DNA of 64,000 nt, taken from positions 1 through 64,000 of the forward strand of contig JALSGP010000012.1 of assembly GCA_026982705.1 (NCBI GenBank), given 5' to 3'. Numbering within the stretch: the first letter of the stretch is position 1; each line of letters opens with the position of its first letter. The DNA is from Alphaproteobacteria bacterium. Lineage in GTDB: Bacteria > Pseudomonadota > Alphaproteobacteria > Geminicoccales > Geminicoccaceae. This document shows positions 20,912 through 30,183 of the stretch, piece after piece. The position numbers were made by a program, and so were the translations under genes. The notes under the pieces were generated by a model, which was not told the DNA's origin, did not search any database, and saw only the letters and a list, made by a program, of their open reading frames with translations.

Positions 20912-23548
20912 ATGGTCGGCATGTGGGATTCCTTCACGGCCCTGGTCGGTCTGCTGCTGATGGCCGTGGCCGGCGGCCTCCTGGGCCCCGTCCTGGGCAT
21001 CGTCAGTCTGATCCGCCAGTCGGAGGTGAAGGGCCGGCTGCTGCGCCTGGAACGGGAGGTGGCCGAGCTGCGCGAAGCCCTCGCCCGGGAGGTGACCGCG
21101 CCGGCCTCGCCCGCGATGCCCGGCACCGCCGCGAGACCGGCCACCGATGCGACCGGATCGGCGGGAGCGGAGGGGCATCGGCCCGCCACGGCGGAGGCCG
21201 GCGCCGGTTCCGTCTCTCCCCCGCCGCCCCGGGCTCGCACCCCCACCGGCCAGCCCCTGGTCTGGATCGGCGGTATCGCCCTCGCGCTCGCGGGACTCCT
21301 CGCGGTGGTCCAGGCGGTGGAGCAGGGACGCATCGGACCGGGCTTCTGGCTCTCGGGGCTGGCCCTCCTCGGTCTCGGCGCCTTCGCCGCCGCCCTCGCC
21401 CTCCATCGCCGGGGGGAGGGGGGCGCCGTCCCGCAGGCCCTGGCCGGAGCGGGGCTCGTCACCCTCTTCGCCACCCTCCACGCCGCCGGCAACCTCTTCG
21501 CCCTGATCCCGCCCGCCCTCGCCTTCGCCCTCGGGGTCCTCACGATCCTCGCCGCCCTCGCCGCCGGCCTCGCCCTCGGCACGCCCGTTCTGCTGCTGGG
21601 GGCGGTCGGCGCCTACGCCGCCCCGCTGCTGGGGGACTACGGTGCGACGAGTCCCCTGCCGTTCTGGGCCTATCTCGGCTTCGTCACCCTGCTGATCGGA
21701 ACCCTGGCCTGGGCACGCGGATCGGTCTGGCTGTCGTGGATCCCGCCCCTCGGTCTGCAGCCCTGGTTCGCGCTCTCGCTGCTCGCGATCCCGTGGTCGC
21801 TGGCCGACCGGCCGGTCGTGGTGACGGGACCGACGGCGTGGTCCTGGGACGTCGCCCTCTTCGGTCTCCTCGCCACCCGTCCGGAGCTGTGGGCGATGCT
21901 CCGGGCCGGCATCGGTCCCCGTTCCTTCGCCCAGCGCCTCGCGCATCATCTGCTCCACCTCGCGGTGGCGGTGGTGCTGCTGGCGGGCTGGCTCGCCGCC
22001 CAGCCCGGCGTCGATCCGCCGCTCCTCGCCGTCCTCGCCGTCGGCGCGCCGCTGTCCCTCGCGGCCGCCGCCGGCGGGGCCGGCTCCGCCGCGGTGCTGC
22101 CGGCCGCGCTGGTCGCCGTGGCGGCCACCTGGACCGTCGACATCCGATCCTTCCGGCTCGCGGAGCTGCTCCCCGATCCGGCCGTCGGCCTCGATCCCCT
22201 CCTGTGGGTGCCGCCGGGCGGCCGGCGGGTCCTCGTCACCGCCCTCGTCCTCGCCGTCGCCTTCGCCACCAGCGGTCACCTCCTCGCCCGCTCCGGCCGC
22301 GACCGGCCGGTGGCGGCGGCGGCCGCCGCCCTGGTCCCTCTGCTGCTGCTGATCGTGACCCGCGGGCGCCTCCAGGAGACCATGGGCGACGGGCCCTTCG
22401 CGGCGACCGCCCTCGCGCTCGCCGCCCTCGCCACGGCCGGCACGGCCGACCTGCTGGTCCGCGGCCGGCCCCGCGCCGCCGGTCTCGAGGCCCTCGCCGC
22501 CTTCGCCGCCGTCGCCACCGGCGCCGCCTTCCACCTCCCCACCGCCGAACTGCCGGTGGCCCTCGCGGTGGTCCCGCTGGGCGGAGCCCTGATCGCGCGG
22601 CGTCTGCCGCTGCCGGAGGTGACCCTCGCCACCGGCCTCGTGGGCATCGCCGCCCTGCTCGCCCTTCTGCGCGAGGCGCTGCGACTCACGGCGGCGGAGA
22701 GTCTCGATCACGCGCTGCTAGCCTACGCGCTGCCGGCGCTGGTGCTGACGGTGACGGTGCAGGGACCGGTGCGGGGACGGCCGGTGCCGGCGGAGGTGCT
22801 CGCGGCCGTCCGCGACGGCGCGGCGTTCACCACCCTCGCGGCGCTGGTGCTGGTGGCCAACGGCACCGCCCCGACCCTCGCCGCCGACCCGATCCTGGCC
22901 CCGGGGCTCGCCCTCGCCCTCTGGCTCCGCTTCACCCACGCCCTCCTCCGCCTCGCGCCGCACCTGCCCTCCCCGGCCCACCGGAGCTGGATCCTGCCGG
23001 CCACCGCGGCGTTCTGGCCGGCCCTCGCCCTCCTGGTCGGCGAGGCCTCGCCGCTGCGGTGGCCGTGGGACGTGGGAGTCCTGCCCCTGTGGGATTCGCT
23101 GCTGGTGGCCGCCCTCCTGCCCACCCTGCAACTGGCCCTCCTCGCCCGTGATCTCGCCCGCGGGGGAAGGCGGGAGGCCGCCGGCGCCGTCGCCGCCCTC
23201 GCCCTCGCCGGGCTGCTCTGGTGGCTGCTCCTGGAGATCCGCCATCTGTTCCACGGCCCGATCCTCGGCCCGGAGGTCCCCTGGACCGCGGCCGAACATC
23301 TCACCCTCACCCTCGCCTGGACGGCGGTGGCGGTGATCCTCGCCGTCGTCGCCCGCCAGTGGGGCCGCTCCGAGGCCCGGGCGGGGGCGGTCGCCGTGGG
23401 CGCGCTGGTGGCGGTGAAGCTCTTCTGGGTGGACGTGGCCGAGCTCGGCGGTACGATCCGCGTCCTCGCCCTGGCCGGTGCGGGGGCCGGTCTGCTGCTC
23501 CTGGGCTGGCTGGTGCGGGGTGGCCGCTCAACCGATGCGGCCGAGTGA
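20912..23548 (+). CDS. DUF2339 multi-span membrane protein
   Basis: Protein of 878 residues of the DUF2339 family. It starts with one membrane helix (LVGLLLMAVAGGLLGPVLG), then a short coiled coil (RLLRLEREVAELREALARE), an Ala/Pro/Thr-rich linker to about residue 115, and about 25 hydrophobic helices to the end. The family has no established function; its polytopic form and position suggest an inner-membrane role. ATG 20912 and ATG 20921 are both possible; the GGGAG upstream is better spaced for the second. It ends 21 bp inside the convergent ccdA-type gene. No frameshift seen. Confidence 0.82.
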   Translation: MVGMWDSFTALVGLLLMAVAGGLLGPVLGIVSLIRQSEVKGRLLRLEREVAELREALAREVTAPASPAMPGTAARPATDATGSAGAEGHRPATAEAGAGSVSPPPPRARTPTGQPLVWIGGIALALAGLLAVVQAVEQGRIGPGFWLSGLALLGLGAFAAALALHRRGEGGAVPQALAGAGLVTLFATLHAAGNLFALIPPALAFALGVLTILAALAAGLALGTPVLLLGAVGAYAAPLLGDYGATSPLPFWAYLGFVTLLIGTLAWARGSVWLSWIPPLGLQPWFALSLLAIPWSLADRPVVVTGPTAWSWDVALFGLLATRPELWAMLRAGIGPRSFAQRLAHHLLHLAVAVVLLAGWLAAQPGVDPPLLAVLAVGAPLSLAAAAGGAGSAAVLPAALVAVAATWTVDIRSFRLAELLPDPAVGLDPLLWVPPGGRRVLVTALVLAVAFATSGHLLARSGRDRPVAAAAAALVPLLLLIVTRGRLQETMGDGPFAATALALAALATAGTADLLVRGRPRAAGLEALAAFAAVATGAAFHLPTAELPVALAVVPLGGALIARRLPLPEVTLATGLVGIAALLALLREALRLTAAESLDHALLAYALPALVLTVTVQGPVRGRPVPAEVLAAVRDGAAFTTLAALVLVANGTAPTLAADPILAPGLALALWLRFTHALLRLAPHLPSPAHRSWILPATAAFWPALALLVGEASPLRWPWDVGVLPLWDSLLVAALLPTLQLALLARDLARGGRREAAGAVAALALAGLLWWLLLEIRHLFHGPILGPEVPWTAAEHLTLTLAWTAVAVILAVVARQWGRSEARAGAVAVGALVAVKLFWVDVAELGGTIRVLALAGAGAGLLLLGWLVRGGRSTDAAE

Positions 23549-24265
23549 GGGGAAGGTCTCCAGCAGGAAGAAGCCGATCCGGTTCATGGTGCCGGTGACG
23601 AAGAGCAGCCCCGCCGCGATCAGCAGCACGCCCATCGCCTGCTCCACCCGCCGGGCATGGCGGCGGAAGCGCTGGAGGAAGCGGAGGAAGGGGCGCACCG
23701 CCGCCGCCGCCGCCAGGAAGGGGACGGCGAGACCGGCCGAGTAGGTGAAGAGCAACGCGGCCCCGCGCCAGACGTTCTCCTCGCTGCCGGCCACGAACAG
23801 GATCGCCGCCAGCACCGGTCCCACGCACGGGGTCCAGCCGAAGGCGAAGGCCATGCCCACCAGGAAGGAGCCCGCGAGGCCGGCCGGCCTCTCCACCTCC
23901 AGCCGGGCCTCGCGCATGAGCAGCGGGATGCGGAGCACGCCGAGGAAATGGAGGCCGAAGACGATGAGCAGCAGCCCGGCCATCACCGCCAGCGTGTCGG
24001 CGTGTTCGGCGAGGAGCTGGCCCACGGCGGTCGCGGTGGCCCCCATGGCCACGAAGACCGCCGTGAAGCCGGCGACGAACAGGAGCGCGGCGGCGAAGAC
24101 CCGCCGCGCCACCTGCGGGGACGCCTCCTCGGCGGCCAGCTGGTCGAAGGTGAGTCCGCCCAGATAGCAGAGATAGGGCGGCACCAGCGGCAGCACGCAG
24201 GGGCTGAGGAAGCTCAGCAGTCCGCCCAGGAAGGCGCCCAGATAGCCGACCTCGAAGCCGCTCAC
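23528..24265 (-). CDS. soxV: CcdA/DsbD-type thiol reductant transporter, SoxV-like
   Basis: Membrane protein of 245 residues with six helices and the two conserved Cys sites of CcdA proteins: LSPCVLPLVPPYLCYLGG in the first span and GWTPCVGPVLAAILF in the fourth. It passes electrons from cytoplasmic thioredoxin to periplasmic thiol proteins. It lies 4 bp after soxB, last in the sox operon, which makes SoxV (the donor to a periplasmic Sox thioredoxin) more likely than general cytochrome c maturation. ATG 24265 is used. The 3' end overlaps the DUF2339 gene by 21 bp. Confidence 0.85.
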   Translation of the reverse strand: MSGFEVGYLGAFLGGLLSFLSPCVLPLVPPYLCYLGGLTFDQLAAEEASPQVARRVFAAALLFVAGFTAVFVAMGATATAVGQLLAEHADTLAVMAGLLLIVFGLHFLGVLRIPLLMREARLEVERPAGLAGSFLVGMAFAFGWTPCVGPVLAAILFVAGSEENVWRGAALLFTYSAGLAVPFLAAAAAVRPFLRFLQRFRRHARRVEQAMGVLLIAAGLLFVTGTMNRIGFFLLETFPSLGRIG

Positions 24266-24269
24266 CGCC

Positions 24270-25964
24270 TCAGCCGCGCACCAGTTCCACCCGGCTCACC
24301 TTCTCGCCGCCGAGCACCCTGCGGTCGCGGATGTAGTCCAGCACCAGCTCCCACACGGGCGGCCCCTCCACGTCCGGATTCACCGAGGCCCAACCGGCGA
24401 CCACGTACTTGCGGTCGGGGTCGACGGGCTCGCCGGTGGCCAGCAGCGTCATGTCGATGATGCGACGTCCCATGGGGGCGGTGGGGTCGATGCGGTAGCC
24501 CATGCCGCCCACGCGGACCATGTCGCCGCCCTGCTGATAGTAGGGATCCGGGTTGAAGAGATTGTCGGCCACGTCCTCCATGACGGTCTTGAGCTGCGCC
24601 CCGGTCATCTCGATCCGGTAGACCTGCGGATAGGTCATGGCCGTGTGGGTGTAGACGAACTCCCGGTCGATGGGCGCTCCCGAGGGCAGCGAGGCGCCCC
24701 AGCGGAAACCGGGCGAGAGGGCGATCTCGGCCTCCCGCCGTTCCAGCAGCGCGGCGAGGATGACGTCGTCCATGGTGCCGTTGAAGTTGCCGCGGCGGTA
24801 GAGGGTGATCTCCGTCTCCCCCACCACCTCCGACAGTTCCGCCGCATAGGGCGCCCTGAGCTCGGTCACCGTCTTCGCCATCTCCGGATGGGGGACGATG
24901 GCGTCCGCCAGCACCGGCATGAGCTTGTAGGCGTAGTCCACCACGCGCCCGCCCTCGACGCGGAGATCGAGGCGGGAGACGAACTTGCCGTGGGAGCCGG
25001 TGGCCACCAGCAGGGTGTTCCCCACCTTCATGGGTCGGGGCATGGCGTCGTGGGTGTGACCGGTGAGGATGACGTCGATCCCCTCCACCCGCGAGGCGAG
25101 CTTGTGATCCACGTCGAATCCGTTGTGGGAGAGGAGCACCACCAGCTCGGCCCCCTCCTGCTCGCGGGCCTCGCGGACCAGGGCCTGCAGCTCCTCCTCG
25201 CGGATGCCGAAGCTCCACTGAGGGATCATCCAGCGCGGATTGGCCACCGGCGTGTAGGGGAAGGCCTGGCCGATCACCGCCACCTTGACGCCGCCCCTCT
25301 CGAAATAGGCGACGCCGTCGAAGACCGGCTCCTCCCAGTCGGTGTCGCGCACGTTCTGGGCGAGGAAGGGGAACTCCAGCATCCCGATGAGTTCCTCCAC
25401 CCGCTCCGCCCCGTAGGTGAATTCCCAGTGGGCGGTCATGGCGTCGGGCCGCAGCAGGTTCATGGCCCGCACCATGTCCTCGCCGCGGGTCCGGAGCGCG
25501 GTCCAGGAGCCCTGCCAGGTGTCGCCGCCGTCGAGGAGGAGCACGCGGTCCTCACCACGCTCGGCCCGCACCGCCTCCACCAGCGTGGCGATGCGGTCGA
25601 GGCCGCCCACCTTGCCGTAGGCACGGGCGAGGGCATCGAAGTCCTCGCTGGTGAGCATGTAGGCCTCGGGCGAGCCCGCCTCGAGACCGAAATGGGCGAG
25701 GAAGTCCCTGCCGGTGAGATGGGGGGGCCGCCCCGCCGCCTCGCCGACGCCGATGTTGACCGAGGGCTCGCGGAAGTAGAGGGGCACCAGCTGGGCGTGG
25801 ATGTCGGTGATGTGGAGGATGGTGACCTGGCCCAGGGGTTCGAACCGCAGGATGTCCTCCTGGCCGAGCCGCTGGCGGGCGAGGGCCCGGGTGACGTTGC
25901 CGAAGCCGACGAGGAGCGGCGCCGCGGCCACGGCCACCTGGAGGAGTTCACGGCGGGTGAGCAT
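24270..25964 (-). CDS. soxB: Thiosulfohydrolase SoxB
   Basis: Periplasmic dimanganese hydrolase of 564 residues that releases sulfate from the sulfonate group on the SoxY carrier. The N-terminus has a twin-arginine type signal (TRRELLQVAVAAAPLLV). The 5'-nucleotidase-like metal sites are seen as TILHITDIHAQ, LLDGGDTWQGS, MTAHWEFTYG, VVLLSHNGFDVD and ILTGHTHDAMPRP. A C-terminal domain ends normally. ATG 25964 follows GGAGAAGGG. Cotranscribed with soxXYZA upstream, although a GC-rich hairpin separates soxA from soxB and may lower soxB expression. Length matches SoxB fully. Confidence 0.96.
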   Translation of the reverse strand: MLTRRELLQVAVAAAPLLVGFGNVTRALARQRLGQEDILRFEPLGQVTILHITDIHAQLVPLYFREPSVNIGVGEAAGRPPHLTGRDFLAHFGLEAGSPEAYMLTSEDFDALARAYGKVGGLDRIATLVEAVRAERGEDRVLLLDGGDTWQGSWTALRTRGEDMVRAMNLLRPDAMTAHWEFTYGAERVEELIGMLEFPFLAQNVRDTDWEEPVFDGVAYFERGGVKVAVIGQAFPYTPVANPRWMIPQWSFGIREEELQALVREAREQEGAELVVLLSHNGFDVDHKLASRVEGIDVILTGHTHDAMPRPMKVGNTLLVATGSHGKFVSRLDLRVEGGRVVDYAYKLMPVLADAIVPHPEMAKTVTELRAPYAAELSEVVGETEITLYRRGNFNGTMDDVILAALLERREAEIALSPGFRWGASLPSGAPIDREFVYTHTAMTYPQVYRIEMTGAQLKTVMEDVADNLFNPDPYYQQGGDMVRVGGMGYRIDPTAPMGRRIIDMTLLATGEPVDPDRKYVVAGWASVNPDVEGPPVWELVLDYIRDRRVLGGEKVSRVELVRG

Positions 25965-26015
25965 CGGCGTCCCTTCTCCGACAGTTGAACACATTCTCAC
26001 CTAAAGGCGGCGAAA

Positions 26016-26039
26016 GGGGCGGCCCCCGAGGGCCGCCCC
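26016..26039 (-). terminator. Hairpin between soxA and soxB
   Basis: Perfect 10-bp inverted repeat (GGGGCGGCCC with a CCGA loop), followed on the minus strand by TTTCG rather than a long T run. It lies in the 91-bp gap between soxA and soxB and looks like an attenuating terminator or an mRNA-processing/stabilising stem inside the operon. Confidence 0.55.
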
Positions 26040-26055
26040 CCGGCGCCGCGCGGAC

Positions 26056-26898
26056 TCACTGCCGCACGGCGGGCGTCTCGACCGGCAGGCCCATGCCGCG
26101 CCAGGCGAGGTACACCTCGAGAGCGATGTACTCGTCGTCCCCGTAGGGATTGGGCGTGGCGCGGATCTGCTTGTTGCAGCCGCGGAAGCGGCGATGGAGG
26201 GAGCCGATCTTCTGCCACTTGAGACGGTATGTGGGGAAGCCGTTGATCTGGCCCTGGCTCAGAGTGTCGGCGCGGATCTTGTGGCCGTAGTAACCTTCGT
26301 GGCAGTTGGCACACGACATGTCGAGCTGGCCGCGGCGCTGATAGTATTCCTTCTTCCCGCGCTCCCACCATTCCTTCATGGGGCCGGAAATATCGATGTT
26401 CATCGGCATCCCGCGAGACTGATACTTGATATAGGTCGTCATCGCGAGAAGCTCTTCCGACTCCCACTTCCAAGGCTTGGCCTTCTGATTGTTTTCCCGG
26501 CAGATGTTGATGCGCTGTTCGAGGTTGACCGGCTTGCCGAGAGGCTCGAACCACTTCGGATAGCTGGCGCCGACGCCCTTCATGCTCTCCTCGGCCGCGC
26601 CATGGCAGTCGGCGCAGGACTTGTTGGCCTCACCGTCCTTGGTGTTCCACAGCTCTTCGCCGCGCTCGACCCACAGGAAGCCGGGATTCTCGAAGTCGTC
26701 GTCCTGCAGGGCCCGCACCTCCGCGGTGCGGAACCAGTAGCCCGAGATGAGCTCCGGCAGCGGATTGCCCTCCTGCGGCTGGACCGACTTGTACCCCGGC
26801 ACCGGCCACTGTTCGTGCTCGGTCGCCGAGACCGCGGTCGCCAGGCCGGCGACCGCGATCGCGGCGACGAACACCACGCCCCAGCGTGTCTTGGACAT
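26056..26898 (-). CDS. soxA: SoxA, diheme c-type cytochrome of the SoxAX complex
   Basis: Catalytic subunit of 280 residues that, with SoxX, oxidatively couples thiosulfate to the SoxY Cys. After a signal peptide (to about residue 25) come two heme-binding sites, C95-ADCH and C196-ANCH, so this is the diheme type. The persulfide heme-ligand Cys is present in RGCNKQIRATP (Cys241). Codon use here is less GC-biased than in most neighbours (many AAG, AAT and GAG). ATG 26898 follows a GGGAGGGA-type site. Placed between soxZ and soxB as in many alphaproteobacteria. Confidence 0.95.
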   Translation of the reverse strand: MSKTRWGVVFVAAIAVAGLATAVSATEHEQWPVPGYKSVQPQEGNPLPELISGYWFRTAEVRALQDDDFENPGFLWVERGEELWNTKDGEANKSCADCHGAAEESMKGVGASYPKWFEPLGKPVNLEQRINICRENNQKAKPWKWESEELLAMTTYIKYQSRGMPMNIDISGPMKEWWERGKKEYYQRRGQLDMSCANCHEGYYGHKIRADTLSQGQINGFPTYRLKWQKIGSLHRRFRGCNKQIRATPNPYGDDEYIALEVYLAWRGMGLPVETPAVRQ

Positions 26899-26928
26899 CG
26901 ACCGAATCCCTCCCGATGACCGGACGCG

Positions 26929-27261
26929 TCAGCTCGCGACCTTGATCTTGGCCTTCTTGGTGTACACGGAACCGTCGTCGTCGACCCACTTGAAGGCAAG
27001 TTCACCCGCCTCGTCGACCCGAAGGTTGAAGGCGATGTACGGATTGGCGGAGATCGCCGGGTGCAGATCCATGGCGAAGACGAGCTCGCCGTTGTAGGTG
27101 GCCTCGAAGCGATTGATGATCTTGCGCGGGATGACGTTACCCTTCTTGTCCTTGCGCTGACCCGACTCCATCGGATGCGAGATCAGCGTCTTGACGGTGA
27201 TCACCTCGCCCTTGGGCACGGGCTTGCGGGGAACACGCACGCGAGGCTTGGGCTTGGCCAT
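26929..27261 (-). CDS. soxZ: SoxZ, subunit of the SoxYZ sulfur carrier
   Basis: Protein of 110 residues with the immunoglobulin-like SoxZ fold. Recognisable blocks are VKTLISHPMESGQRKDKKG, RFEATYNGELVFAMDL and ISANPYIAFNL. It has no signal peptide and is exported bound to SoxY through the Tat signal of its partner, as known for the family. ATG 27261 has a GGGAGAGAAGAG site. It lies 17 bp downstream of soxY. Confidence 0.96.
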   Translation of the reverse strand: MAKPKPRVRVPRKPVPKGEVITVKTLISHPMESGQRKDKKGNVIPRKIINRFEATYNGELVFAMDLHPAISANPYIAFNLRVDEAGELAFKWVDDDGSVYTKKAKIKVAS

Positions 27262-27278
27262 GTCTCTTCTCTCCCGAA

Positions 27279-27743
27279 TCAGCCGCCGCAGCCGCCGATG
27301 GTCACCTTGACCTCACGGCTGGTCAGGTACACCGAGCCGTCGCTCATCTCCGCCAGCGCATACACCTTCTGCGTCTTGGCCAGGCGGATGCGGGTACTGG
27401 CCCAGGCCTCGCCGTTCTTCGGCGTGAAGTGGAAGGTGCACACGTCCGGACGCGGATTGCCGTCGGCGAACACGTGGACGCGCTGCACGTGGTCGTCGGC
27501 GGTCATGGGGCTGTCCACCGAGACGGAGACCGGCACGGTGTTGCCGTTCTCGGCGATCTCCGGCGCGTCCAGGGTGATCCGCCCCTCCTGGACGGTGCGA
27601 TCGCCGACGATCTCCTTGATCTTGGCCTCGACGGCCGCCGCATCGGCGCGGGCCGATCCGCCGGCGAGGCCCGCGAGGCCGAGGCCTGCCACCACTCCAC
27701 CGGTGCCGAACAGCAGCCGGCGACGTCCGATCCTGGTCTGCAT
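27279..27743 (-). CDS. soxY: SoxY, sulfur-carrying subunit
   Basis: Protein of 154 residues that carries pathway intermediates on its C-terminal Cys. The twin-arginine signal (GRRRLLFGTGG) spans about the first 33 residues. The C-terminus ends in VTIGGCGG, the swinging-arm motif with the carrier Cys. ATG 27743 is followed at once by the signal. It lies 35 bp downstream of soxX. Confidence 0.96.
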   Translation of the reverse strand: MQTRIGRRRLLFGTGGVVAGLGLAGLAGGSARADAAAVEAKIKEIVGDRTVQEGRITLDAPEIAENGNTVPVSVSVDSPMTADDHVQRVHVFADGNPRPDVCTFHFTPKNGEAWASTRIRLAKTQKVYALAEMSDGSVYLTSREVKVTIGGCGG

Positions 27744-27778
27744 CGCTTACTCCTTCTGCGACTCCACGGTTGCCCGGC

Positions 27779-28249
27779 TCACTGGAGCGTCTTGAGGAAG
27801 GCGATCACGTCCTCGACCTGTTCGGCGGTGAGGATCGTCTTGCCCCGGAACTTCTCGAGCACGTCGTGCAGGCCCGTCGACCGGAAGAAGGCCGGCATGA
27901 TCGTGTCCGGATTGACCACCTTGGGATCGACGATCCGCAACCGCATCTCGCCCTCGCTCAGACGCGAGGCGACACCGTCCAGCGACGGCCCCACGTTGCC
28001 GTGGTAGGGCTCGTCGGCCAGTGCCGACACCTGGTGGCACGCGAGGCAGTTGCCGAGCTTGCGGTTGACGAACACCTTGCGCCCCTTCTCCGGATCGCCC
28101 GGCTTGCCCGTGAGCGATTCCGGAATCGCGTGCTCGTCGACGATGGTATAGGTGATCCCCTGCTCGGTCACCTGCCGCTCGGCGGCGATGGCCGCGCCCC
28201 CGATCACGGCGGAGACGGCCAAGGCCGCCACCATCACCCCTGTTCGCAT
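27779..28249 (-). CDS. soxX: SoxX, monoheme cytochrome c
   Basis: Small subunit (156 residues) of the SoxAX cytochrome. A signal peptide (MVAALAVSAVIGGAAIAA) precedes the heme site C68-LACH; NPDTIMPAFF supplies the distal Met ligand. The frame is open for 34 codons upstream, but ATG 28249 begins the signal peptide and has an AGAGGGA site, so it is the start. First gene of the soxXYZAB-soxV unit, with an AT-rich promoter region before it. Confidence 0.94.
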   Translation of the reverse strand: MRTGVMVAALAVSAVIGGAAIAAERQVTEQGITYTIVDEHAIPESLTGKPGDPEKGRKVFVNRKLGNCLACHQVSALADEPYHGNVGPSLDGVASRLSEGEMRLRIVDPKVVNPDTIMPAFFRSTGLHDVLEKFRGKTILTAEQVEDVIAFLKTLQ

Positions 28250-28331
28250 GGACGTGGAGCTCCCTCTCTTCTCTCTCGCTGGCCCGATGGTGCCGACATG
28301 CCTGCGCACGCCCGCCACCATGTGGCGGCGA

Positions 28332-28354
28332 TCATATTCGCGCTTTTTCATATC
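28332..28354 (-). promoter_or_regulatory. Direct repeat in the sox promoter region
   Basis: TCATATT at 28332-28338 and TCATATC at 28348-28354 (plus-strand reading) repeat with a 16-bp period inside a rare AT-rich patch about 85-105 bp upstream of soxX. Possible binding sites for a regulator of the sox genes; no soxR gene is in the window. Confidence 0.3.
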
Positions 28355-28436
28355 GCAAGACGCCGCGACGCTCCCGGCGTGCCGCCGAGTGTCGCACGGG
28401 GACGCGTGGGACGGGCAATTCTACCGCAGGTCTGTA

Positions 28437-28826
28437 TCAATCGGTCGCGGCGTGCGCCGCCACCTCCTCCCCGTGGGGCGGCAGGCGCGCCAGCAACTCC
28501 GCCAGCAGCGGCCAGAAGAAGTCCTCGCCGGGATAGCCGGTGATGCGGCCGATCTCCCGCCCGTTCTCGACGAGCACGAAGGTGGGCGTGTAGCGGATGC
28601 CCTTGACGAAGGCCAGATCCGGCGGTCGCGGCCCGTCCACGTCCACCCGTCTAAGGGGGGCGATCCGCGCTTCCGGGGTCCTGGGATAGATGGGCCCGAT
28701 CTCCTCGTGCCAGCGCTCGCACCACTCGCAGTACGCGCTCTCGAACATGACCAGCTGCGCCGCCCATGCCCTCGCCGCCACCACCAGCAGCGGCAGCGCC
28801 AGCACGATCGAGAGGATCCGACGCAT
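28437..28826 (-). CDS. soxS: SoxS-like periplasmic thioredoxin
   Basis: Thioredoxin-fold protein of 129 residues. An N-terminal signal peptide (ILSIVLALPLLVVAARAWA) is followed by LVMFESAYCEWCERWHEEIG with the CEWC active site, YPRTPEARIAPLRRVD, and the cis-Pro region RYTPTFVLVENGREIGRI. This matches SoxS of Paracoccus-type sox loci, which keeps the SoxY Cys reduced and active. ATG 28826 has GAGGGAG about 9 bases upstream. The frame continues upstream without a stop into another ORF, so a longer fusion product cannot be excluded. Read in the same direction as soxX, 187 bp before it. Confidence 0.88.
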   Translation of the reverse strand: MRRILSIVLALPLLVVAARAWAAQLVMFESAYCEWCERWHEEIGPIYPRTPEARIAPLRRVDVDGPRPPDLAFVKGIRYTPTFVLVENGREIGRITGYPGEDFFWPLLAELLARLPPHGEEVAAHAATD

Positions 28827-29348
28827 GGGGCGATCTCCCTCGCATCCGCCGCGGAAACGACGGACTTCGCCGGGGGGCACCCGGCGCCGCCAGCCGTCTC
28901 CGGCGACCATATAGCCCAGCTGATCGGCGGGACCATCGAGGGCGCGGCCGAGACGCGGATCGACCAGGGCGCGGTACGGGATCCACAGCTCGCGTTCGTC
29001 GGGGCCCGTGACCACCGCCGCCATCGCCGCGAACAGCGGGCGGGCGACGGTGCCGCTGCGCGCCGGCTCGACGAGCCACAGGCGGGGAACGGTGAAGAGG
29101 ACCGGTCGATCCGGTGGCGGCGGATCCAGCAGGAACCCGGCCCACAGCGGTCCGTCGTCGCGGCCGAGGCCGAAGACCCGCCGCCCGGCCCGCGCCCGCA
29201 GCCAATCCTCGATCCGGTGGCAGAACTCGGATGGCGCCTGCGCCTCGCCGTTGGCCGCGGCGATCGGCCACAACAGGCGGCAGTGTCCGATCCCGAGTTC
29301 CTGCAGCCACCAGCGCCCGGCCGTCGGCGTGTCCCTCGCTCCGTCCAT
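28827..29348 (-). CDS. ORF of 174 codons running in frame into soxS (possible GNAT-like domain)
   Basis: From ATG 29348, with a GGAGGA ribosome site, a frame of 174 codons runs without any stop straight into the soxS start. Its sequence looks protein-like: WLQELGIGHCRLLWP, FGLGRDDGPLWAGFLLD, VPRLWLVEPARSGTVARPLFAAM, LGYMVAGDGWRRR. The strand and helix order hints at a degenerate GNAT acetyltransferase fold, but I cannot claim the family. Either it is a 303-residue fusion with SoxS, odd because a signal peptide would then be internal, or the stop was lost by mutation or sequencing error. Confidence 0.45.
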
Positions 29349-29400
29349 CGCCGAGGCTCCTCCATCGGACCCCGCCTATCGACCCCGACCCGATGCCACA

Positions 29401-29414
29401 TTGACCCATCTCAA
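29401..29414. promoter_or_regulatory. FNR-type box between the soxS-side ORF and the Fnr-family gene
   Basis: TTGAC-CCAT-CTCAA keeps the outer TTGA...TCAA arms and the 14-bp length of the FNR/FnrL site TTGAT-N4-ATCAA. It is 50 bp upstream of the TTG start of the Fnr-family regulator and 53 bp upstream of the divergent ORF, so it could serve autoregulation and the soxS side. Confidence 0.5.
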
Positions 29415-29463
29415 ACTTTGTCCCACTAAGGCGGGTGATACTGGAACGGCGGGAGGACTTCCC

Positions 29464-30183
29464 TTGGCCGCCGTCGTCGACGACCGGGCCGTCTGCTGCG
29501 GACACCACCGGGTGTGCGAGAGTTGCGAGGTGCGCGACCTCGCCGTCTGCCGCGTCCTCTCGCCGGAGGAGCTGCGCCGCTTCGCCGCCCTCGCCCGTCA
29601 CGTGACGCTGGAGAGCGGCGCGACCCTGTTCCACGAGGGCGATCCCGCCACCCACGTCTATTCCCTGACCCGCGGCTATCTGCGCCTGTGCAAACTGCTG
29701 GCCGACGGCCGCCGCCAGATCACCGGCTTCCTGGTGCCGGGCGACTTCATCGGCCTCGCCTTCGCCGACACCTACGTCTATTCGGCCGAGGCCCTGGGGC
29801 CCACGAGACTCTGCGCCTTCGCCAGGACCGCCTTCCAGGACTGGCTCGCCCGCACCCCCCACCTCGAACACGAACTGCTGGGCCGGGCCCGCGGCGAGCT
29901 CGCCGCCGCCCAGGAACAGATGCTGCTGCTGGGCCGCAAGAGCGCCCGCGAGCGGGTGGCGAGCTTCCTGCTCGCCTTCGCCCGCAGGCTCGGCCGCGAG
30001 CCCGGCGAGACGGTGCCGCTGCCCATGACCCGCACCGACATCGCCGACTATCTCGGCCTCACCATCGAGACGGTGAGCCGCACCCTCTCGGGCCTGCGGC
30101 GCGAGGGACTGATCGAACTGGTGGGCAAGAACGGCTATCGCATCCGCCACGCGGCGGCGCTGGAAGCGGTGGCGGCGCTCTGA
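29464..30183 (+). CDS. Crp/Fnr family regulator, oxygen-sensing FnrL type
   Basis: Regulator of 239 residues. The N-terminal Cys cluster CESCEVRDLAVC (Cys18, Cys21, Cys29) plus central Cys117 (TRLCAF) matches the [4Fe-4S] ligands of FnrL-type proteins. The cyclic-nucleotide-like beta roll covers about 35-150, and the HTH at the end reads TRTDIADYLGLTIETVSRTL with the E-SR contacts for TTGA half sites. TTG 29464 follows GGGAGGA at 6 bases and gives the expected N-terminus. The FNR-like box upstream suggests autoregulation. Lying beside the sox genes, it may tune them or respiration to oxygen. Confidence 0.88.
   Translation: MAAVVDDRAVCCGHHRVCESCEVRDLAVCRVLSPEELRRFAALARHVTLESGATLFHEGDPATHVYSLTRGYLRLCKLLADGRRQITGFLVPGDFIGLAFADTYVYSAEALGPTRLCAFARTAFQDWLARTPHLEHELLGRARGELAAAQEQMLLLGRKSARERVASFLLAFARRLGREPGETVPLPMTRTDIADYLGLTIETVSRTLSGLRREGLIELVGKNGYRIRHAAALEAVAAL

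Follow-up and report, generated by a model that had tools for sequence, protein, structure and literature searches.

A GNAT-like gene beside an fnr-type gene runs without a stop into soxS: a probable local overlap of two genes at the front of a sox cluster

SoxS of Paracoccus pantotrophus is a periplasmic thiol-disulfide oxidoreductase with a thioredoxin-like domain, a CxxC motif, a signal sequence and a place in the sox cluster. SoxR is a regulator of the ArsR type. According to the accessible part of PMC10451225, SoxS reduces mixed disulfides and thereby maintains SoxYZ in its active state, and SoxR, which appears there in a gene list together with SoxS, is a repressor of sulfur oxidation. 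Nested in-frame starts have also been described, for example in cheA(S) and infB (accessible part of PMC12350097). As at the locus studied here, the second start of these genes lies inside a longer frame; whereas their products are isoforms of one protein, the frame described below joins two unrelated domains that are encoded by separate genes in relatives.

The present locus has the domain, motif, signal sequence and cluster position of the Paracoccus protein in common; in contrast, its soxS frame extends upstream into another gene, and the pair formed by that gene and an FNR-type regulator gene adjoins it. In the window, which is the whole 64,000-nt stretch of DNA that was analysed, a single open frame on the minus strand runs from an ATG at 29348 to a stop at 28437-28439, covering 303 codons with no internal stop. 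Codons 1-174 form the upstream gene, here called UP, and codons 175-303 (129 codons) form soxS, whose ATG lies at 28826-28824. The sequence-only reading, which gives no strand, had described a GNAT-like 174-codon frame that is continuous with SoxS, and this continuity is borne out. The features of the region are listed below.

29464..30183, plus strand: FNR-type regulator gene, divergent from UP, with a putative TTG start and a Cys-rich N-terminus.
29401..29414, no strand assigned: presumed FNR/FixK-type box TTGACCCATCTCAA, TTGA-N6-TCAA, in the spacer between UP and the regulator gene.
29357..29363, minus strand: UP ribosome site GGAGGAG, from its sequence and an anti-SD duplex of -9.3 kcal/mol.
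28827..29348, minus strand: UP, 174 codons from the ATG at 29348 with no stop ahead of soxS; FNR's usual neighbour, with profile homologues and a GNAT-like fold model.
28835..28840, minus strand: soxS ribosome site AGGGAG, within the UP frame, from its sequence and an anti-SD duplex of -8.5 kcal/mol.
28437..28826, minus strand: soxS, encoding a 129-residue thioredoxin-like protein with a CEWC motif and a signal sequence, in frame with UP.
27779..28255, minus strand: soxX, TIGR04485 over its cut-off; the ATG at 28255 is the putative start, and another start, at 28351, would also fit the open frame.
27279..27743, minus strand: soxY, TIGR04488 at 158 bits (cut-off 125).
26929..27261, minus strand: soxZ, TIGR04490 over its cut-off.
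26056..26898, minus strand: soxA, TIGR04484 over its cut-off.
24270..26000, minus strand: soxB, TIGR04486 over its cut-off.
23528..24265, minus strand: gene for a CcdA/DsbD-type membrane protein, matched by DsbD-type profiles, all under cut-off.

Both starts have ribosome sites of their own, as had been claimed, each located 8 nt before its ATG. Since the start and the site of soxS lie within a longer frame, soxS has the layout of an in-frame nested gene. Along UP, 2.8% of 502 20-mers pair as well as the soxS site or better, and some of these contain that site. The signal peptide that had been proposed at the soxS ATG agrees with both inspection and hydropathy; no 15-mer of the whole frame is more hydrophobic than the segment that follows this ATG (mean Kyte-Doolittle value of 2.91), which leads into AWA-A.

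The identity of SoxS is indicated by its relation to a solved SoxS, by its CxxC motif (CEWC) together with the predicted export signal, and by its place in a sox cluster. In particular, its best solved relatives are PDB 3d4t/3dml (phmmer E of 3.1e-27 over residues 198-291 of the fusion), which we take to be the SoxS of Paracoccus pantotrophus and which a table title names 'Putative uncharacterized protein'; a Thioredoxin_2 match (E of 2.1e-5) is under its curated cut-off. Among plasmid records, 11 match the fusion over residues 201-279, within the SoxS part alone; 7 of the 11 are from Paracoccus, and 1 of the 10 that were listed is annotated as SoxS. Downstream, soxX, soxY, soxZ, soxA and soxB, and then the CcdA/DsbD-type gene, follow on the same strand, and the position of the last (23528..24265) suggests that it is perhaps SoxV. 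The SoxY protein (27282-27743) has a tail that reads IGGCGG, and its score is slightly better against the SoxY-related 'AACIE arm' profile (160.5 bits, not reaching the cut-off of 172) than against the true SoxY profile (158 bits, passing the cut-off of 125).

The junction looks different in relatives. UP is followed by soxS in 4 of 17 UP places: in the window itself, in G003 from the same genus, in G016, and on contig C246 of G024. In the last three, UP and soxS are separate overlapping genes, with UP in the +1 frame relative to soxS and with a UP stop that begins 25 nt (G003), 79 nt (G016) or 1 nt (G024) past the beginning of the soxS start; a common frame is present in one of the four genomes that have the pair. 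The soxS ribosome site is strong in all four (duplexes of -8.5 to -10.8 kcal/mol). Between the window and G003, SoxS is far better conserved than the fast-changing UP, with 80% identity over 116 residues for SoxS and 39% over 109 for UP. The stop codon check in relatives refutes a conserved fusion, since UP ends separately in all three, and it leaves the shared frame of this genome standing. The proposal that a stop was lost is a fair description of the difference from relatives, with the qualification that their UP stop sits in another frame. Most likely, the fused frame is a local overlap, and neither a conserved fusion nor a new fused machine. The overlap of the UP end with the soxS start in another frame, as found in relatives, suits translational coupling. 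G024 has two UP copies, one with soxS (C246) and one without (C413), and a genome contamination of 8%; its sox-linked copy may be foreign.

At the 73% G+C of the 64-kb window, a missing stop is weak evidence by itself. Most of the UP-soxS stretch is open in four of the six frames; a plus-strand frame of 425 codons spans it entirely, and the remaining two minus-strand frames are likewise open across the junction, to 28421 and 28651. Among named soxS loci (the best 80 of at least 436), SoxS is preceded by 174 or more open codons in two, L078 and L022, and the frames before SoxS in L078, L032 and L037 were read as a background of open frames. L078 was rejected as a second fusion, with most of its 339 open codons antisense to a ccdA-type gene; in L022 (HRbin39, same genus) the open stretch does not share the frame of UP and lies in part antisense to FNR. 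By reasoning, an abutting gene pair on the same strand would have a common frame by chance about one third of the time. As judged from the sequence, the coding status of the first half of the fusion frame rests on homology in that frame. In codon-position G+C, UP (0.79/0.59/0.86) departs further from the typical pattern than SoxS does (0.71/0.49/0.92), and the final 66 nt of UP before soxS lack a coding look (0.86/0.73/0.73), as would be expected of a variable tail.

The description of UP as GNAT-like is upheld by a fold model and by remote profile links, and not by the curated families: a Pfam and NCBIfam scan of the first 174 residues, with E up to 10, gave no match. When the 17 close UP homologues were scanned singly against Pfam, no GNAT family was matched, and the chance-like matches were EAD2 (E of 0.017) and Inovirus_G7P_1 (E of 0.82), in one member each; against NCBIfam, one member matched the AAC(6')-Iak acetyltransferase (E of 0.012) and one an adhesin (E of 1.5). 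Acetyltransf_1 appeared in 3 of 10 distant members, under its cut-off (E of 0.0079-0.25). By curated GNAT profiles, the UP family, with 17 close and 10 distant members considered, falls outside the assigned GNATs.

A model of UP from two sequences (the window and L022) reached a pLDDT of 67.7 and a pTM of 0.65, compared to pLDDTs of 38.3-45.2 for four other models, and its strands and helices follow the GNAT order. Foldseek on this model gave a best E of 8.1e-4, and the titles that name a family are acetyl- or acyltransferases. VIA-align, whose 50 rows re-align Foldseek's own matches and so are no survey of other folds, gave its highest Z of 11.6 to the acetyltransferase 3exn (137 aligned, rmsd of 3.3), with acyl- or acetyltransferases in nearly all family-naming titles and 1z4e titled as a transcriptional regulator. 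Against PDB sequences, the UP profile ranks a GNAT first at an E of 0.032, closely followed by unrelated chains, among them seed globulins and beta-lactamases. The modelled fold, of middling quality, indicates that UP likely has the GNAT fold, and UP resembles GNAT acetyltransferases in this fold and in the order of strands and helices. The acetyl-CoA loop of GNATs carries the motif [QR]xxGx[GA]. By contrast with these enzymes, none of the 17 UP members has it at the expected place, in the loop after strand 4; a regular expression finds three matches among the 17, all beyond that place, within the next helix or past it. Its sequence makes an enzymatic activity of UP doubtful.

A profile search, with a profile built from 7 sequences that are all among the places found, located UP homologues at 17 places in 16 of the 31 genomes of the family, the present genome included. 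Conserved Trp, Pro and Glu positions run through these homologues, and an FNR-type regulator gene adjoins UP at all 17 places (L102-L118); at 13 of them SoxS is absent from the fetched DNA. By its homologues, UP is a real gene and a family of its own. Within the genus, G001 has UP beside FNR without a soxS match, and G002 (89% complete) has neither UP nor soxS.

A wider search sampled 385 genomes from the class, with at most 9 candidates scored per genome, and found UP profile matches in 30 of them, 4 of these from the same family; the weakest of the class-wide matches are ordinary GNATs by sequence. Further, 26 loci outside the family were fetched and sorted by reading, into 20 UP-like loci, 5 ordinary GNATs (L143, L145-L148) and 1 locus without a matching open frame (L142). 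FNR is present in the fetched DNA of 15 of the 20 UP-like loci and absent from that of L124, L128, L135, L138 and L141; in L123, L127 and L130, UP is in tandem with FNR and not divergent from it. A plasmid search returned no annotated UP relative and, for a distant member, a single Rhizobium place that carries no annotation; a literature search returned no paper on a GNAT family divergently transcribed from FNR in Alphaproteobacteria.

The FNR-type regulator of the window matches NCBIfam FnrL with an E of 8.7e-55 and 185.6 bits, under the 300-bit cut-off. The TTGA-N6-TCAA sequence, which we take to be an FNR/FixK type of box, is present in the promoter region, the UP/FNR spacer, of all 17 loci, with no occurrence in 200 dinucleotide shuffles per spacer. 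From the box and the neighbourhood, FNR would be predicted to control sox. The sox genes follow immediately on the downstream side of the promoter region between FNR and UP (23528-30183), a position that suggests oxygen-responsive control of sulfur oxidation. In the fetched DNA of the named soxS loci (the best 80 of at least 436), 54 have an ArsR-type regulator, 1 has FNR (HRbin39, same genus) and 25 have neither; the FNR/UP pair occupies the place where an ArsR-type gene stands at other soxS loci. Two ArsR-type genes of the present genome score over the cut-off, and each lies on a contig other than that of the sox cluster. On contig C9 (L150, 1291-1758, minus strand) there is an ArsR-type regulator with cysteines, whose places presumably resemble those of the SoxR/SqrR persulfide sensors, and this gene may be an unlinked, real sox regulator.

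Several explanations of the shared frame compete with that of two genes. It is hardly credible that UP is not a gene, with a frame that is open merely through high G+C; the lack of a Pfam or NCBIfam match, the opening of four of six frames over most of the stretch and the weak codon pattern in the last 66 nt of UP point that way, but this is already disfavoured by the constant place beside FNR, the GNAT-like fold and the homologues that the profile located in 16 of the 31 family genomes, in which Trp, Pro and Glu positions are conserved. A functional 303-residue fusion, in which a cytoplasmic GNAT domain would be tethered via a signal anchor to periplasmic SoxS, beside or instead of free SoxS, is rather unlikely. 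Its frame is open with homology on either side of the junction, UP has a good ribosome site of its own, and the Arg-rich flank ahead of the hydrophobic stretch suits an N-in/C-out insertion; however, only one of the four genomes with the pair has the common frame, and the 13 UP genes without SoxS in their fetched DNA also count against it. A single-sequence model of the whole fusion is too poor to judge by (pLDDT of 39.7).

The shared frame would instead be an artefact if a sequencing or assembly error had removed the UP stop, which we regard as improbable. The assembly is a draft of one genome in 48 contigs, the same-genus G003 has a UP stop, and one substitution would suffice; against this, the assembly has a completeness of 99.66% and a contamination of 0.16%, and none of the three minus-strand frames meets a stop between UP and a point at least 173 nt inside soxS. 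With every one of these frames still open past the junction, an insertion or deletion of one base is disfavoured in particular, since it would not reproduce the short overlap of the relatives. A substitution error or a strain oddity is possible, as the shared frame is known from a single genome. A more far-reaching proposal is that the sox operon was captured by an oxygen-sensing fnr locus, with SoxS in two forms, one free and one a membrane-spanning tether to a cytoplasmic GNAT-fold protein, which would link the protein partnered with FNR to periplasmic thiol control; we consider this very unlikely.

Overall, the locus probably consists of two genes on a single sox transcript with an FNR-type box at its head, with SoxS made from its own start and the 303-residue product a possible by-product. 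Of the two outcomes offered by the sequence-only reading, two proteins from nested starts are favoured by these comparisons, because the soxS ribosome site is strong in four of four genomes and UP ends separately in the other three. Under this two-gene reading, UP and soxS would adjoin each other head to tail as the first two genes of a transcript UP-soxS-soxX-Y-Z-A-B-ccdA, from a promoter with an FNR-type box that would be common to the UP side and the divergent fnr gene. The variable tail of UP would lie in the soxS frame and be stop-free there, leaving UP without an end of its own. SoxS would still be made from its own ATG and ribosome site, be exported by its own signal sequence and serve SoxYZ as it does in other organisms. 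Ribosomes initiating at UP would yield a 303-residue protein with a cytoplasmic GNAT domain and with the SoxS signal sequence as an internal anchor or a cleavable signal. The single transcript, both translation starts and the membrane insertion are steps that we infer, and the fusion could be the main form in which SoxS is produced.

In ToxR/CadC-type proteins, a cytoplasmic domain, Arg-Arg and a hydrophobic stretch form the layout of an N-in signal anchor. The earlier statement that a fusion would bury the signal peptide is too strong, as the predicted product also fits this layout. By this analogy, the 303-residue product need not be harmful, since its Arg-Arg, with the hydrophobic stretch and the thioredoxin domain that come next, could serve as an N-in signal anchor.

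The case illustrates how, in DNA very rich in G+C, two genes can come to overlap without a stop between them; an automatic caller may then report one fused protein in place of the two found in relatives and conceal the soxS start. The fusion deserves less attention than two other features of the locus, the GNAT-fold family linked to FNR and the sox operon that an FNR-type box precedes. The former is a likely GNAT-fold family that has no curated profile, that lacks the usual acetyl-CoA loop and that stands beside FNR behind a conserved FNR-type box. Moreover, the presence of soxS after UP in four places makes oxygen control of sulfur oxidation directly testable.
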